Source of the DNA: Synechococcus sp. MVIR-18-1
GTDB taxonomy: Bacteria; Cyanobacteriota; Cyanobacteriia; PCC-6307; Cyanobiaceae
Direction: 5' to 3'
Length of the DNA: 64,000 nucleotides
Assembly: GCF_014279835.1 (NCBI RefSeq)
Contig: NZ_CP047942.1
Coordinates: 1,550,001 to 1,614,000, forward strand
The notes under the pieces: model-generated
What the model was told of the DNA's origin: nothing
The model's input: only the letters and a program-made list of their open reading frames with translations
Database searches by the model: none
Shown: positions 703 through 62,833 of the stretch, one piece after another
Layout: the number at the start of each line of letters is the position of its first letter
Position numbering within the stretch: the stretch's first letter is position 1
Program-made: the position numbers and the translations under genes

Positions 703-1719
703 TCAGCCATCCATTAGGCCGTCTGTCTGATCAAGCACGAAGCGGTAACGCACATCACCACGATGCAAGCGTTCAATCGCTTGATTGACCTGATCGAACG
801 GAAGATGCTCCACCTGAGGTTTGATGGCATGCCTCACGCAGAACTCCATCATTTTTCGAAGACTCCCAGGCGACGACGTGGGACTACCCGTGATCGACCG
901 ACGAAAGGAAATCAAATCGAAAGCACCAACTTGTATGGGCTGCAAGACGGCTCCCAGCTGATGCAAGCGACCCCGTGGGGCCAGAGATCCCATCACGGCA
1001 GACCAGTCGAGCGGTTGATTCGCGGTGTTAATCACGAGATCGAAGCGTCCAGCCAATGCGGGGAGCTCTTCTAAGAGCATCACATTGTGAGCCCCAAACC
1101 CCCTGGCCTCATGAGCCTTGGTGAGGTCGGTGGTGAGAGCGGTGACCTCACACCCCCAGGCCTTAGCGAACTGCAGCGCCATATGACCGAGTCCACCAAT
1201 CCCCACAACCGCCACATGGGCCATAGGCGACACCTGCTCATCCAGAAGCGGAGCAAAAACTGTGATGCCACCGCAGAACAACGGTCCTGCCACGGCAGGA
1301 TCCATCCCTTTTGGCAGAACAATTGTCCAGTCCTGGTGGGCTTTGACATGGCTGGCAAGCCCGCCCTGGCGGCCCACAATCGTCGCCTCCAGGGACGGAC
1401 AAAGATTGCTGGTTCCAGCCAAACATTGATCGCAGCGAAAACAACTGCCACTGATCCAGCCCAAGCCACGAATCTGCCCGATCACGCTTGAGTCCACGCC
1501 AGCGCCAACAGACACCACCCTGCCCACAACTTCATGGCCAGGGACTAGCGGGTACTGGCTGATGCCCCAGCTGTTGTCGATCATCGACAGGTCGCTATGG
1601 CAAAGACCGCAGTGAAGGACCTCTAAAACAAGTTCGTCAGCACCCGGCTCAAGCAGGACTCTCTTGACCTTTTGCAGAGGCGCCGATGCACTCTCAGCTT
1701 CCCAGACATCTATATCCAC
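703..1719 (-). CDS. Zinc-dependent NAD(P) alcohol dehydrogenase
   Basis: The protein is a medium-chain dehydrogenase/reductase that should interconvert alcohols and aldehydes, closest in motifs to the YahK/cinnamyl-alcohol-dehydrogenase group. Catalytic zinc ligands are visible as Cys40 in CGLCHSD, His62 in GHEVVG and Cys149. The structural zinc lobe has Cys93, 96, 99 and 107 in the usual C-x2-C-x2-C-x7-C spacing. The Rossmann nucleotide loop GIGGLG is at residues 173-178. Length (338 residues) is normal for the family. The start is GTG, and no upstream in-frame ATG was seen close by. The substrate cannot be read from sequence. The divergent DUF1651 gene lies about 180 bases upstream. Confidence 0.9.
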   Translation of the reverse strand: MDIDVWEAESASAPLQKVKRVLLEPGADELVLEVLHCGLCHSDLSMIDNSWGISQYPLVPGHEVVGRVVSVGAGVDSSVIGQIRGLGWISGSCFRCDQCLAGTSNLCPSLEATIVGRQGGLASHVKAHQDWTIVLPKGMDPAVAGPLFCGGITVFAPLLDEQVSPMAHVAVVGIGGLGHMALQFAKAWGCEVTALTTDLTKAHEARGFGAHNVMLLEELPALAGRFDLVINTANQPLDWSAVMGSLAPRGRLHQLGAVLQPIQVGAFDLISFRRSITGSPTSSPGSLRKMMEFCVRHAIKPQVEHLPFDQVNQAIERLHRGDVRYRFVLDQTDGLMDG

Positions 1720-1897
1720 GATGAATCCAGCCAGCCTGATTCAGCCTTAGCCAGAAAAACAAAAAGTGCGTTGACGCACGCGCAGAACTCAACTAGAACA
1801 TCTGTACCAGCGACAGATTCTTGGCTCCGTGTTCGCCCTACGCCCCTTTCCAGGCTGAAGCGTGGATGCATGACTCTGTCATCAGCCCTCGAAAGAC

Positions 1898-54709: not shown

Positions 54710-55765
54710 ATGAGCGACACCCTGCCCCTACTGCTCCGTGCCGCCCGCGGAGAATCGGTAGAGCGTCCTCCAGTCTGGATGATGCGCCAAGCAGGGCGCT
54801 ACATGAAGGTCTACCGCGACCTTCGCGACCGCCACCCCAGCTTCCGAGAACGATCTGAAAACCCCGATCTCTCGTACGAGATCTCCATGCAGCCCTTTAA
54901 GGCCTTCCAGCCTGATGGGGTGATCCTTTTCTCAGACATCCTGACCCCACTGCCTGGCATGGGGATCGAGTTCGACATTGTTGAGAGCAAAGGCCCTCAA
55001 ATTGGTGATCCAATCAGGAACCTCAGTCAAGTTGAAGCGCTCAGGCCTTTGCAGCCAGAAGAGAGCATGCCCTTTGTGGGCGAAGTCCTGGGCCGGCTGC
55101 GCAGCAGCGTTGGCAACCAGGCCGCAGTCCTTGGCTTCGTAGGCGCCCCCTGGACCCTGGCGGCATACGTCGTGGAAGGAAAAAGCAGCAAGAACTATGC
55201 CGTCATCAAAAAGATGGCCTTTCAGGAGCCAGAACTCCTGCATAAACTCCTCGATCACTTCGCGACTTCGATTGCTACCTACCTGCGTTATCAAATTGAT
55301 TCCGGAGCGCAGGTTGTCCAGATGTTTGACTCCTGGGCAGGGCAACTCAGCCCCGCCGATTACGACACGTTTGCTGCGCCCTATCAGAAAAAAGTTGTTG
55401 ATCTCGTCAAACAAACGCATCCCGACACCCCATTCATCCTTTACATCTCTGGAAGCGCAGGGGTTTTAGAACGAATGGGTCGCACAGGTGTCGACATCAT
55501 TTCTTTGGATTGGACCGTGGATATGGCTGAGGGCCTCGCCCGCCTTCCTGACCACATCGGCGTACAAGGCAATGTCGATCCTGGATTGCTGTTTGGCACA
55601 CCTGAGGCCATTCGCGATCGCATCGATGATTGCGTACGCAAGGCCCGTGGTCGCCGCCACATCCTGAATCTTGGCCATGGAATTTTGCCTGGCACGCCTG
55701 AGGAGAATGGCCGCGCATTCTTTGAAGCTGGTAAGACTGTGATGGATCGAATCGGGGAGGGCTGA
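54710..55765 (+). CDS. hemE: Uroporphyrinogen decarboxylase
   Basis: This is a 351-residue enzyme that decarboxylates the four acetates of uroporphyrinogen III to give coproporphyrinogen III, leading to haem and chlorophyll. Characteristic motifs are [13 protein letters not shown] near residue 21, [28 protein letters not shown] and LDWTVDM. Length is normal. The next gene begins directly after its stop, so the two are probably on one message. Confidence 0.96.
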
Positions 55766-56767
55766 TTGATCCCGTCACCCGCTCGAATCTTGATTACCGG
55801 CGCAAGTGGTTGCGTCGGCCAATACACAACGGCTTGGCTCCTGGAAAATTCCGATGCCGAGTTGCTGCTTTGGCTGCGAGATCCAGCCAAACTTTCGGCA
55901 ATCTCAGCAGATCAACCACGTGTCCGCTTGTTAGTAGGAGATCTGCGTGAAACAGATCGATTTGCGAGCGAACTCTCCACCGTGACCAGGGTGATTCATA
56001 CGGCTACTGCATGGGGAGATCCTGAGCGTGCCCATCAGGTGAATGTCGTGGCCGTCAAAAGGATGCTGGCCCTTCTGAATCCAGCTGTCGTTGAGCAGAT
56101 CATCTATTTCTCAACCGCCAGCATTCTCGATCGTTCCCTGCAACCGCTTCAAGAAGCTCTGGCCTACGGCACCGAATACATCCAAACCAAAGCTCAATGC
56201 CTAAGGGAGCTTGAACAACATCCATTGGCTGAACGCATTGTGGCGGTGTTTCCAACACTGGTATTCGGCGGAAGGGTAGATGGAACAAGTCCCTTCCCGA
56301 CCAGTTACCTAACGGAAGGCTTAGCGGAAGCAAGCAAATGGTTATGGCTCGCTCGCTGGCTGAGAGCCGATGCCAGCTTCCATTTCATCCATGCTGCTGA
56401 CATTGCTGAAATCTGCGGGATCCTGGCTACCACGCCTCACCAACCCAATCCAGAACCTGGGCAGGGACCGGTCCGCAGAATCGTGATGGGACAACCGTGG
56501 ATCAGCGTGAACGATGCCGTTGCCACGCTCTGTCGCTGGAGAGGTGTGTCGCGAACTCCTGGGATACCCCTTTGGAGCTGGTTAATTGAAGGCCTGATCA
56601 AAATCCTTCCCATCGAAATCAACGCATGGGATCGATTTTCAATTCATCAACGTCACTTCGTTCATGATCCCGTTACCCAGCCTGAACGCTTCGGTGGTCG
56701 AAGCTATGGACCAGACCTTGAAACAGTTCTGATGAATTCAGGACTTCCACATCGTGGAAGCATCTGA
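55766..56767 (+). CDS. NAD(P)-dependent epimerase/dehydratase-type SDR
   Basis: This is a 333-residue extended SDR. The nucleotide loop ILITGASGCVGQYTT is at about residues 8-22, and the catalytic pair is in YIQTK near residue 139. The substrate is unknown; nearby hemE suggests but does not prove a pigment or lipid role. It starts with TTG right after the hemE stop, with GGGGAGGG as a strong ribosome-binding site eight bases upstream, which settles the start. Confidence 0.85.
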   Translation: MIPSPARILITGASGCVGQYTTAWLLENSDAELLLWLRDPAKLSAISADQPRVRLLVGDLRETDRFASELSTVTRVIHTATAWGDPERAHQVNVVAVKRMLALLNPAVVEQIIYFSTASILDRSLQPLQEALAYGTEYIQTKAQCLRELEQHPLAERIVAVFPTLVFGGRVDGTSPFPTSYLTEGLAEASKWLWLARWLRADASFHFIHAADIAEICGILATTPHQPNPEPGQGPVRRIVMGQPWISVNDAVATLCRWRGVSRTPGIPLWSWLIEGLIKILPIEINAWDRFSIHQRHFVHDPVTQPERFGGRSYGPDLETVLMNSGLPHRGSI

Positions 56768-56801: not shown

Positions 56802-57161
56802 ATGATCAGCCGTTTGCGTTCTCTCCTCTCAGCCGCGATTGCTTTGGCACTCGTCCTGGGTATCGGTGTTGGTACAGCCAATGCTGCCACTGTTGAAGTG
56901 AAGCTCGGTACAGATTCCGGCATGCTTGCATTCGAACCCAGCACCCTCAACATCAAAGCTGGTGACACCGTCAAATTTGTCAACAACAAGCTGGCACCTC
57001 ACAACGCCGTTTTTGATGGCCACGACGAGCTCAGCCACAGCGATCTAGCGTTTGCTCCCGGCGAATCATGGGAAGAAACCTTCACTGAAGCTGGAACTTT
57101 TGACTTCTACTGCGAGCCCCACCGTGGTGCTGGCATGGTTGGCAAAGTTATCGTTGAGTGA
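56802..57161 (+). CDS. petE: Plastocyanin
   Basis: This is a 119-residue lumenal copper protein that carries electrons from cytochrome b6f to photosystem I. The signal peptide ends near GTANA (residue 28), and the copper ligands are His67 in LAPHNAVF, Cys104 and His107 in [10 protein letters not shown], and Met112. Start, length and ligands are standard. A strong terminator follows, so the petJ gene downstream is probably under separate control. Confidence 0.97.
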
Positions 57162-57186: not shown

Positions 57187-57230
57187 AGTCCGGCGAGCGT
57201 TTTAACAGATGCTCACCGGGCTCTTTTTTT
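57187..57230 (+). terminator. Intrinsic terminator of petE
   Basis: AGTCCGGCGAGC and GCTCACCGGGCT form a 12-base stem with one mismatch and one G-T pair, followed by CTTTTTTT. It lies about 25 bases after the petE stop, well placed to separate petE from petJ. Confidence 0.88.
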
Positions 57231-57274: not shown

Positions 57275-57646
57275 ATGCTCCATCCCATGTCCCTGTTCGC
57301 ATTGCTGCTTTGCATCGGCCTCAACCTGTTGGGAGTCTCACCTGCAGTTGCGGTGGCCAGCACTTCTGGCGTTGACGTCGAACATGGTGGGCAACTCTTT
57401 TCTGCGAATTGCGCTGCATGCCACATGGGTGGTGGCAATGTGATCAGTGCCTCCAGAACATTGAGTCAAAGGGATCTTCAAGCTCATCTCAATGAGTACG
57501 GCGACGATCACATTGAGGCCATCGAGCACCAAATTGAAAATGGAAAGAATGCGATGCCCTCGTTTGAAGGAAAATTGAGCGAACAAGACATCATTGATGT
57601 AGCCGCCTACGTAGAACTCAAGGCTGAAAAAGGCTGGCAGCGATGA
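57275..57646 (+). CDS. petJ: Cytochrome c6
   Basis: This is a 123-residue lumenal cytochrome and the alternative carrier to plastocyanin when copper is scarce. The signal peptide ends near AVAVA, the haem site is CAACH (Cys46, Cys49, His50) and the axial Met94 is in NAMPSFEGKL. The ATG at 57275 is chosen; the frame begins with TTG at 57260. The stop overlaps the next gene by four bases (ATGA), so the Nif11-like gene is co-translated. Confidence 0.95.
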   Translation: MLHPMSLFALLLCIGLNLLGVSPAVAVASTSGVDVEHGGQLFSANCAACHMGGGNVISASRTLSQRDLQAHLNEYGDDHIEAIEHQIENGKNAMPSFEGKLSEQDIIDVAAYVELKAEKGWQR

Positions 57647-57846
57647 GCCGAGAGGGTTGGAAAGATTTCTTGCGTGCTGCAGAACGCAGTCCAGCTCTTC
57701 AACGGGAACTCAGCGTCTGTATTGAAACAAAAGACATCGTTGCGCTTGGCAAAAGACTAGGTTTCTCATTGTGCCTAGACGACCTCAACCAAGACCCTCA
57801 AGCCGAAGCCATCAGCAAATGGTTCGAGCAGAGCACGATCCAATAA
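57643..57846 (+). CDS. Nif11-like small protein
   Basis: This is a 67-residue protein with the Nif11-type helix pattern: FLRAAERSPALQREL and IVALGKRLGFSLCLDDL. The Nif11 family includes leader peptides of ribosomally made natural products and unlinked small proteins of unknown role. No modifying enzyme or double-glycine cleavage site is seen, so a leader role is unlikely. It overlaps the petJ stop by four bases and may be translated with it. Confidence 0.72.
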   Translation: MSREGWKDFLRAAERSPALQRELSVCIETKDIVALGKRLGFSLCLDDLNQDPQAEAISKWFEQSTIQ

Positions 57847-57935
57847 CCGGACAACCCTCTACATCACGGCGTACATATCTCACCTTTATCCTGATAACTC
57901 TGGAGCGACATCAGGCGTTGATCAAAGCAAATGCA

Positions 57936-58166
57936 ATGACTAGCGAACAGTTGGATCGGGTCATTGAGATGGCATGGGAAGACCGCACACCCTTTGAAGC
58001 GATTGAATATCAGTTCGGTCTGAGGGAGAAAGATGTGATCAGCTTGATGCGCCAGTCGTTAAAACCAGGATCCTTCCGTAGCTGGCGTAAACGTGTCTCA
58101 GGCCGCAAAACCAAGCATGCAGCCACGAGCCATGCCGACCGATTCAGAGCAGCTTGCCACCACTAG
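57936..58166 (+). CDS. TIGR03643 family protein
   Basis: This is a 76-residue protein matching TIGR03643, a small bacterial family of unknown function. The pattern DRVIEMAWEDRTPFEAIEYQ and FGLREKDVISLMRQSLKPGSFRSWRKRVSGRKTKH is diagnostic. It looks like a helix-turn-helix fold. The ATG at 57936 gives the family length, although the frame extends upstream. It follows the Nif11-like gene by 89 bases. Confidence 0.78.
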   Translation: MTSEQLDRVIEMAWEDRTPFEAIEYQFGLREKDVISLMRQSLKPGSFRSWRKRVSGRKTKHAATSHADRFRAACHH

Positions 58167-59885: not shown

Positions 59886-60083
59886 TTAACTGCGAACTGC
59901 CTCCAGCACCGCAAGATACAGATCCTCGTCGATCTCCCGGATGTCGTATTCCGTAGGCATGGCGCCATGGTGATGTTCATGCACCACGGTCCAACACTTG
60001 CGCTCCACATCACTCAGTTCGGCTCCGTACACGGCATGGACACGCTCCACCAAAGCCTTGACCAAAGCTGAATCTGTTGCCAT
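59886..60083 (-). CDS. Small conserved-looking protein
   Basis: This is a 65-residue soluble protein starting MATDSALVKALVERVHAVY. The middle contains ERKCWTVVHEHHHGAMPTEYD, with a His-rich patch and a single Cys that could bind metal. It ends in an acidic helix. No family is recognised. The ATG at 60083 is clean. It is divergent from clpB, with 158 bases between starts. Confidence 0.68.
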   Translation of the reverse strand: MATDSALVKALVERVHAVYGAELSDVERKCWTVVHEHHHGAMPTEYDIREIDEDLYLAVLEAVRS

Positions 60084-60241: not shown

Positions 60242-62833
60242 ATGCAACCCACAGCCGAACTATTCACCGAAAAAGCCTGGTCCGCGATCATGTCAGCCCA
60301 GCAGCTGGCGCAAAACCGCCGGCATCAACAGCTTGAAAGTGAGCACCTGTTGCGGGCTTTGTTGGACCAAGAAGGTTTGGCTGGCCGGATCCTCGATAAG
60401 GCTGGGGTGTCTCCACCCGCTCTGCAAACGGCTGTAGAGACCTATCTCAGTCAGCAACCCTCACTCACCAACGCCCCAGACTCGGTGTTTCTAGGCAAAG
60501 GCCTCAATGCCTTGCTCGATCGCGCTGAAACGCTGAAGCAAAGTTATGGCGATAGCTTTATTTCAATTGAGCATCTGCTGCTGGCCCTCGCCGACGATGG
60601 TCGCTGTGGCCGTCAGCTTCTTAGCCAAGCTGGCACCGATAGCTCTCGTTTAAAAACCGCCATTAATGCCGTGCGTGGCAGTCAGAAAGTGACCGACCAA
60701 AACCCAGAGGGAACCTACGAATCTCTCGAAAAATATGGTCGAGATCTCACGAGCGCTGCCCGAGACGGCAAGCTCGATCCGGTGATTGGTCGTGATGAAG
60801 AAATCCGCAGAACGATTCAAATCCTCAGCCGACGCACCAAAAACAACCCTGTCCTGATTGGTGAACCAGGGGTCGGCAAGACAGCGATTGTGGAAGGGCT
60901 TGCCCAACGCATCGTCAATGGGGATGTGCCTCAAGCCTTGCAAAATCGTCAGTTGATCGCCCTCGATATGGGAGCACTGATCGCTGGAGCCAAATATCGC
61001 GGTGAATTTGAGGAACGCCTTAAAGCCGTGCTCAAGGAGGTCACCAACTCCGAAGGACAAATTGTGTTGTTCATCGATGAAATTCACACCGTGGTCGGTG
61101 CAGGTGCCACCGGTGGCGCCATGGACGCCAGCAACCTGTTGAAGCCCATGCTTGCGCGAGGCGAACTGCGCTGCATCGGGGCCACCACCCTGGACGAGCA
61201 CAGACAACACATCGAGAAAGACCCCGCCCTAGAGCGTCGCTTTCAGCAAGTGCTGGTCGATCAACCCACCGTTGAAGACACCATTTCAATTTTGCGTGGA
61301 CTTAAAGAGCGCTACGAAGTGCACCACGGCGTCCGCATTGCAGACAGCGCGCTCGTAGCAGCAGCCGTTTTGAGTAGTCGATACATCGCCGATCGCTTCC
61401 TTCCAGACAAAGCGATCGACCTTGTGGATGAATCAGCCGCCAGGCTTAAGATGGAGATCACCTCCAAACCAGAGGAGATCGACGAAATCGATCGCAAAAT
61501 CCTTCAGTTAGAAATGGAGAAGCTCTCGTTAGGACGCGAGTCTGATGCGGCGAGTCAAGAGCGACTGCAGCGATTGGAACGAGAACTTGCGGAATTATCC
61601 GAACAACAAAGCACCCTCAATGCTCAATGGCAGCAAGAAAAAGGTGCCATTGATGAGCTCTCGGCTCTGAAAGAAGAGATCGAACGCGTGCAACTACAGG
61701 TGGAACAAGCCAAGCGGAGTTATGACCTCAACAAGGCTGCAGAGTTGGAATACGGAACGCTCGCTGGACTTCAAAAGCAACTGCACGCCCAGGAACATGC
61801 CTTGGCAGAAACCGATGACACTGGCGAAAAATCACTGCTAAGAGAGGAGGTCAGCGAAGACGACATCGCTGAGGTGATTGCGAAGTGGACAGGAATTCCT
61901 GTGGCAAGGCTTGTTCAATCCGAGATGGAGAAACTACTCAAACTCGAAGACCAACTCCATGAACGCGTCGTCGGACAACACCAAGCAGTGACGGCTGTAG
62001 CCGACGCCATCCAGCGATCCAGAGCCGGGCTCAGCGACCCAAATCAACCCATCGCTAGTTTTTTATTTTTGGGACCCACCGGTGTGGGCAAAACAGAGTT
62101 GTCAAAAGCCTTGGCAGCCCAATTGTTTGATAGCGAAGACGCCTTGGTGCGCATCGACATGTCGGAATACATGGAGAAACATACGGTGAGCCGATTAATC
62201 GGTGCACCTCCCGGATATGTGGGATACGAGGCTGGAGGACAGCTCACAGAAGCGATACGGCGCAGACCATACGCGGTGATCTTGTTTGATGAAGTGGAAA
62301 AAGCTCATCCAGACGTCTTCAATGTGATGCTCCAAATCCTCGATGATGGTCGCGTCACCGACGGCCAAGGCCGCACTGTTGATTTTACCAATGCTGTGTT
62401 AATTCTCACCAGCAACATCGGCAGTCAATCCATCCTCGATTTAGGAGGTGATGACAACCAATATCAAGAGATGGAGAGTCGGGTCAATGAAGCTCTACGC
62501 AGCCATTTCCGTCCAGAGTTCCTAAACCGAATCGACGACACCATCATTTTTCATAGTCTTCGTCGCGATGAATTGCGCCAAATCATTGGCCTTCAAGTAG
62601 AACGATTAAGACAACGTCTCAGTGAACGCAAGCTCGATCTCAACATCAGCGAAGAAGCCACCGACTGGTTAGCCAATGCCGGTTATGACCCTGTTTATGG
62701 CGCGAGGCCCCTCAAGCGAGCGATTCAGCGGGAACTGGAAACACCCATTGCGAAAGCGATCCTCGCAGGTCGCTACGAAGAAGGCAGCACAGCCCAAGTA
62801 GACGTTGAAGAAGAACAACTCAGTATTAACTGA
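60242..62833 (+). CDS. clpB: ClpB protein disaggregase
   Basis: This is an 863-residue AAA+ chaperone that works with DnaK to rescue aggregated proteins. Order of parts: N-terminal Clp_N repeats (about 1-145), first AAA domain with Walker [14 protein letters not shown] at about residue 206 and Walker B LFIDEIH, coiled-coil M domain (about 410-530, rich in Glu, Leu and Gln), second AAA domain with Walker [14 protein letters not shown] at about residue 610 and sensor residues in RPEFLNRID. Length is normal. No CIRCE repeat is seen in the 158 bases upstream. Confidence 0.97.

Follow-up and report, generated by a model that had tools for sequence, protein, structure and literature searches.

In the picocyanobacterium Synechococcus sp. 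MVIR-18-1, whose genome is a single contig of 2.45 Mb, a small gene for a stand-alone Nif11-domain protein overlaps the cytochrome c6 gene petJ by four nucleotides, and in other genera of the family its relatives are often found behind the plastocyanin gene petE at loci where petJ is absent. We put the chance at about even that the product is a Nif11 docking protein that is cytosolic and autonomous, is co-expressed with petJ wherever that gene is present, and acts as an adaptor or regulator for the supply of these electron carriers and not of c6 alone. The features that matter here were placed as follows in the window, by which we mean the whole 64,000-nucleotide stretch of DNA that was analysed:

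54710..55765, plus strand: hemE, left part of the conserved block, named by reading the protein with no family search; relatives lie upstream in related loci
55766..56767, plus strand: SDR/epimerase-family gene with a TTG start (PF01370, 56.1 bits), in the conserved block
56802..57161, plus strand: petE, plastocyanin precursor (TIGR02656, 126.4 bits against a cut-off of 87.85; PF00127), signal peptide by eye
57187..57230, plus strand: intrinsic terminator of petE, a hairpin (57187-57224) and then a T-run
57275..57646, plus strand: petJ, cytochrome c6 of the Gln-52 type (PDB c6 1kib), signal peptide by eye
57643..57846, plus strand: stand-alone Nif11-domain small protein of 67 aa (PF07862, 35.2 bits), with a 4-nt ATGA overlap with petJ
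57936..58166, plus strand: TIGR03643/DUF2805 protein of 76 aa (TIGR03643, 126.9 bits against a cut-off of 66.55)
60242..62833, plus strand: clpB, right part of the conserved block, named by reading the protein with no family search; relatives lie downstream in many loci

The order of the block is hemE, SDR, petE, terminator, petJ, Nif11 gene, TIGR03643 and, further on, clpB, such that the layout given in the preliminary description (petE and petJ as neighbours with a strong terminator between them, the Nif11 gene overlapping petJ by ATGA, and TIGR03643 next) was recovered in full. Gene order at related loci showed that marine Synechococcus retain the block hemE-SDR-petE-petJ-nif11-clpB and that Prochlorococcus retain it with some members lost. 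A 65-aa ORF for which neither Pfam nor NCBIfam gave a match at E<=0.1 lies at window positions 59886-60083 (minus strand), on the strand opposite clpB, and its relatives are found between petJ/nif11 and clpB in many loci.

Evaluating the cytochrome itself revealed a CAACH haem motif (CxxCH) and, by eye, a hydrophobic N-terminus or signal peptide, with the best solved structures being c6 (1kib, E 2.6e-29) and with a Gln aligned to that of 1kib at the redox-tuning position 52, where the rule in PMC8358224 is Gln in c6 and a hydrophobic residue in c6B and c6C. The name c6 is used because of residue 52 and the PDB matches, and on these grounds the petJ product is a c6 of the high-potential type and not c6B; against the NCBIfam PetJ model NF045930 it scored 119.5 bits, under the cut-off of 135, and formal equivalog status is not claimed. 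The start at ATG 57275 was preferred over TTG 57260, and most relatives begin with MLNP or similar there. A second Gln-type c6 gene (Gln by eye; 118 bits against NF045930) lies elsewhere in the genome (L002:1495-1851, minus strand), between genes that resemble, by eye, a HupE/UreJ protein and a permease, and the third c6-family gene (in L003) is c6B, with Val at position 52 by eye and a best match to 4kmg, the c6B structure of PMC8358224.

Within the genus, 30 of 31 genomes carry the Nif11 gene, the one without it being G026, whose completeness is 63%, and all 30 loci possessed petE-petJ-nif11 with the ATGA overlap, the Nif11 ATG being set on the petJ TGA. In a second Synechococcus genus (g5) petJ likewise stands beside the Nif11 gene in 21 of 22 genomes. 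The invariable coupling to petJ within the genus, at 30 loci of 30, is what favors a c6-specific factor, that is, a Nif11 protein that helps to make, or to switch to, cytochrome c6. The TIGR03643 gene, which had been proposed as part of the same c6-linked set, turned out to be unlinked in most relatives: 26 of 31 genus genomes have it, 9 at the petJ locus and 17 elsewhere. Its probable start is ATG 57936, 89 nt after the Nif11 stop, and the longer GTG frame is closed in 5 of the 9 loci (the open frames run to 85-87 aa). The literature naming DUF2805 proved scant in our search and of no help, and with only 9 of 26 at the locus we rejected this protein as a partner; it is an incidental neighbor, in this sub-clade only, and no part of the petJ-nif11 unit.

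Beyond the genus, a different picture emerged. We searched a Nif11 profile built from 30 genus proteins against 250 family genomes, drawn at at least 80% completeness, and 70 of them matched; 68 were kept (24 of the genus and 44 of other genera), the two left out of this count and of the 74 loci (30 genus, 44 other genera) having weak Nif11 matches away from this locus (L081 and L082, in G121 and G073). Upstream petE was present at all 44 loci of other genera, and petJ was absent from 23 of them, such that the expected gene order, with petJ and the Nif11 gene linked, stood in the genus and in g5 but failed at about half of the loci outside the genus. Across all 74 loci petJ is present in 51 and absent in 23, the Nif11 gene then following petE, and among the petJ-bearing loci the 4-nt overlap recurs in 43 of 51, while the remaining 8 leave 2-5 nt between the two frames.

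Co-occurrence was scored at thresholds of E<=1e-9, 1e-20 and 1e-20, c6 and plastocyanin being judged at E<=1e-20. Both petE and petJ are found in 77 of the 250 family genomes, 52 of which have the Nif11 gene, and petE only in 75, where the Nif11 gene is present in 16 and absent from 59. The profile found the gene in none of the 85 genomes with petJ only (no plastocyanin found at E<=1e-20; for example G038, G046 and G059), which are the mirror image of the petJ-less Prochlorococcus, nor in any of the 13 with neither carrier. Seen from the other side, the 68 genomes with the Nif11 gene all have petE, 52 have any c6, and 16 have no c6 at E<=1e-20. Exceptions to the link with petE do occur: in one genus, two genomes that lack petE (L086, L097) have a diverged Nif11 gene downstream of petJ, at a distance of about 200 nt. 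At L090, where petE is present, the gene is diverged and N-terminally degraded. Outside the two Synechococcus genera, this inspection covered 20 petJ loci, one of which (L095) is not at the block. The Nif11 gene, then, occurs with either carrier or with both, and its association with petE is strong, not absolute, and confounded by ancestry.

Named database records, a set that overlaps the family genomes, held a similar mixture. Among the best 80 of 276 petE relatives, petJ and the Nif11 gene occur together in 19, all titled Synechococcus and WH7803 included; the Nif11 gene occurs without petJ in 15 (9 Prochlorococcus, 4 Synechococcus, 2 other), petJ alone in none, and neither gene in 46 (42 Prochlorococcus and 4 uncultured Synechococcaceae), two of which (L209, L235) stop no more than about 110 nt from petE, too close to be judged. 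Outside the family, only 10 matched among the 156 class genomes searched, and these matches cover about positions 1-56 of 74; orthologues outside the family were rejected on that partial coverage. In the loci fetched for the weaker Nif11 matches, neither petE nor petJ turned up in tblastn searches with the two genes of the window.

On a tree of the neighboring SDR protein (128 rows), 5 changes are needed for petJ and 6 for the Nif11 gene. Rows that lack petJ and have the Nif11 gene fall among Prochlorococcus, in L063, L189 and L198, and in L191, a short metagenomic contig. Built quickly (LG+G4, unrooted, L095 and L203 left out) and with support below 80 at 42 of 117 inner branches, the tree reads best as three probable losses of petJ in which the Nif11 gene stayed.

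Substitution rates were compared on both sides of this divide. Across 28 pairs from 8 close loci beside petJ, the Nif11 gene gave a dN of 0.086 and a dS of 0.774 (ratio of means 0.11), and petJ itself, in the same pairs, 0.068 and 0.796. Where petJ is missing, dN/dS of the Nif11 gene was 0.17-0.28 in six pairs, with two more pairs being saturated in one case and without a finite dS in the other. Three petJ-bearing g5 pairs gave 0.09, 0.31 and 0.38, such that constraint does not clearly depend on whether petJ is there. One locus, L059, was left out of alignment A3, and its GTG start was set by hand for the gap and dN/dS comparisons. As judged from these rates, the Nif11 gene is under purifying selection both beside petJ and in the lineages that lack petJ here.

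These observations bear directly on the c6-specific factor, to which a role in c6 maturation had also been attached. The diverged copies behind petJ in the two petE-less genomes lend it some support beyond the coupling in the genus, but the gene is retained under purifying selection without petJ, follows petE directly at the 23 of 74 loci where petJ is missing, has no c6 at E<=1e-20 in 16 of its 68 genomes, and was found by the profile in none of the 85 petJ-bearing genomes that lack petE, the group to which the two diverged copies belong. Moreover, c6 matures in the lumen and the Nif11 protein has, by eye, no signal peptide, and a part in lumenal c6 maturation is for this reason unlikely. We consider a c6-specific role improbable on the whole.

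The transcriptional setting of the gene was evaluated through the terminator of petE. Its hairpin (57187-57224) folds at -22.2 kcal/mol with a T-run after it, the petE-petJ intergenic region has a fold z of -3.99, and none of 200 shuffles reaches the same stability; a simple consensus terminator scan did not include this hairpin among its calls. Among the related loci, a hairpin of <= -8 kcal/mol with a T-run follows petE in 59 of 74, where dinucleotide shuffles average 12 of 74, and at a threshold of -15 kcal/mol the counts are 54 of 74 against 0.6. Of the 23 loci that lack petJ, 21 also retain the terminator, as against about 1 of 23 after shuffling. Since it stands there before the Nif11 gene, the latter is presumably transcribed from its own promoter in petJ-less loci.

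It had been suggested that adjacent petE and petJ genes with a terminator between them reflect copper-dependent switching, and one can extend this to a Nif11 protein that is part of the control, with petJ-nif11 as the low-copper arm. The arrangement itself, petE and petJ adjoining with a terminator between, speaks for such a component. The known PetR/PetP copper switch, whose PetR belongs to family PF03965 (PMC7896320), concerns the same two genes. However, an adjacent gene and a terminator are no evidence for switching, and PF03965 (BlaI), a family wider than PetR, is absent from all 31 genus genomes, as compared to its presence in 49 of 78 class genomes (none among the 7 family members drawn). 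A switch by PetR was rejected on this absence; one that works by other means may still operate. In addition, the Nif11 gene is kept in genomes without a detected c6, where there would be nothing to switch, and we regard a copper-switch component as highly improbable.

Iron limitation lowers a petJ gene, without a clear indication of which c6 copy, in two strains of marine Synechococcus (PMC12274634), and in field Synechococcus an unspecified Nif11 transcript rises with iron (PMC9723758). An iron-responsive petJ-nif11 pair would fit both of these transcript reports, neither of which is tied to this gene. In the literature within reach of our search, which most subscription papers lie outside, we found none that links Nif11 to petJ or to cytochrome c6, and for plastocyanin only the transcript list of PMC9723758.

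Turning to the protein, the match to PF07862 (35.2 bits, gathering score 23.8) spans the full profile, positions 1-48, and beyond the domain the tail is conserved at W60, F61 and S64. The profile of the group matched a single solved structure below E 0.001, namely 9zn4 (the MppE Nif11 leader) at E 0.00022, with the remaining six listed structure matches at E 0.15-0.9. The AlphaFold model is helical and of moderate confidence (pLDDT 75.8), and Foldseek with this model returned nothing significant, the best hit being again 9zn4 at E 3.6. Defence families had no match for either small protein (Nif11 or TIGR03643). The protein resembles other stand-alone Nif11 proteins of PF07862 in being short, with a single N-terminal Nif11 domain over the Pfam cut-off, and it differs from them in forming a distinct orthologous group with a conserved tail that is fixed behind petE/petJ.

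To our knowledge, no function has been established for Nif11 proteins other than RiPP leaders. Precursors of that kind carry a variable core peptide behind a GG-type site and have a modifying enzyme nearby, and their Nif11 leaders dock on their enzymes. A RiPP precursor with a Nif11 leader and a short core, as in the prochlorosins, would explain the shared domain, the weak match to the leader model TIGR03798 (26.3 bits) and the distant sequence match to 9zn4. The present protein nevertheless scores under the leader cut-off of 32.3, its C-terminal part is conserved where a core would vary and shows, by eye, no variable core behind a GG-type site, and the nine ORFs scanned between 55766 and 60083 include no modification or transport family. 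We rejected a RiPP precursor on score, tail and neighbors, and hold the chance of one to be minimal.

The Nif11 product may be a small helical cytosolic docking protein that is made together with apo-c6 where petJ exists and, where petJ has gone, is expressed from its own or the former petJ promoter. By analogy with Nif11 leaders on their enzymes, it would dock protein to protein through its Nif11 surface, and it would thereby act as adaptor or regulator of a cytosolic partner tied to the supply of plastocyanin or c6. It would then serve more than c6 alone, being presumably made also where petJ is gone.

The strongest competitor to a carrier-linked docking protein is that the gene is an inherited bystander, with a function unrelated to the carriers, a coupling to petJ that serves expression only, and a linkage that is old synteny. 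The genes hemE, SDR and clpB, none of which has to do with the carriers, share the same conserved block, and inheritance of the block would suffice to account for the linkage; the neighbors petE and petJ come and go independently of the Nif11 gene, and the many Prochlorococcus that keep petE without it (the 42 counted above among the best 80 of 276 named records) count against the carrier-linked reading, as do the 59 of 75 petE-only family genomes that lack it. On the other hand, the Nif11 start lies inside petJ or within 5 nt of its stop in 51 of 51 petJ-bearing loci, and in the inspected loci the orthologue is found only beside petE and/or petJ. A bystander is a serious possibility that we place short of an even chance, and between a Nif11 protein concerned with the carriers and a bystander in an old block the choice is not far from even.

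Other Nif11 genes in the same genome also lie near electron carriers. Nine, the present gene included, are over the cut-off. In L003 (genome C1 about 1620600-1621600) a Nif11-cupin gene (817-1389, minus strand), its cupin match under the cut-off for that family, is divergent from the c6B gene (1486-1818, plus strand), with a YciI-family gene on the other side. This agrees with the c6B neighbors given as "data not shown" in PMC8358224, namely "Nif1 domain-containing", YciI and DUF3136, of which Nif11 and YciI are seen here; it differs from the present gene, which is single-domain, downstream of c6 and overlapping it. At L259 (genome C1:881705) a single-domain Nif11 gene (1501-1746) ends 86 nt before the start of a gene (1833-2114) for a plant-type [2Fe-2S] ferredoxin. 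Genes of the L259 type occur in 31 of 31 genus genomes, and in 30 such loci fetched the ferredoxin follows 90-372 nt on, on the same strand, in 18 and does not in 12 (three of these being cut by contig ends). A further two or three Nif11-like genes stand in a row at L262/L265 (genome C1:500477-500939), next to genes that resemble phycobilin lyases; two of these neighbors have no NCBIfam family. For the other Nif11 genes of the genome no electron-carrier neighbor was recognised. That two of three c6-family genes have a Nif11 neighbor has a probability of 1.3e-4 by chance, as a rough, after-the-fact figure that assumes 2700 genes.

The occurrence of Nif11 genes beside plastocyanin/c6, c6B and ferredoxin is a lead and not a result, and it may matter more than our main finding. 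It is conceivable, if rather unlikely, that the single-domain Nif11 proteins of picocyanobacteria form a class that, in the cytosol, partners or regulates the soluble electron carriers of photosynthesis, and if so, each such protein would govern how much of its carrier is supplied, for example by iron status. For the gene described here, the conserved coupling to petJ makes a function in c6 a tempting conclusion, and the loci beyond the genus correct it, as that coupling is no evidence of c6 function here. What stands in its place is a short, constrained gene, coupled to a photosynthesis gene in Synechococcus and kept by Prochlorococcus lineages that, at this locus, do without petJ.
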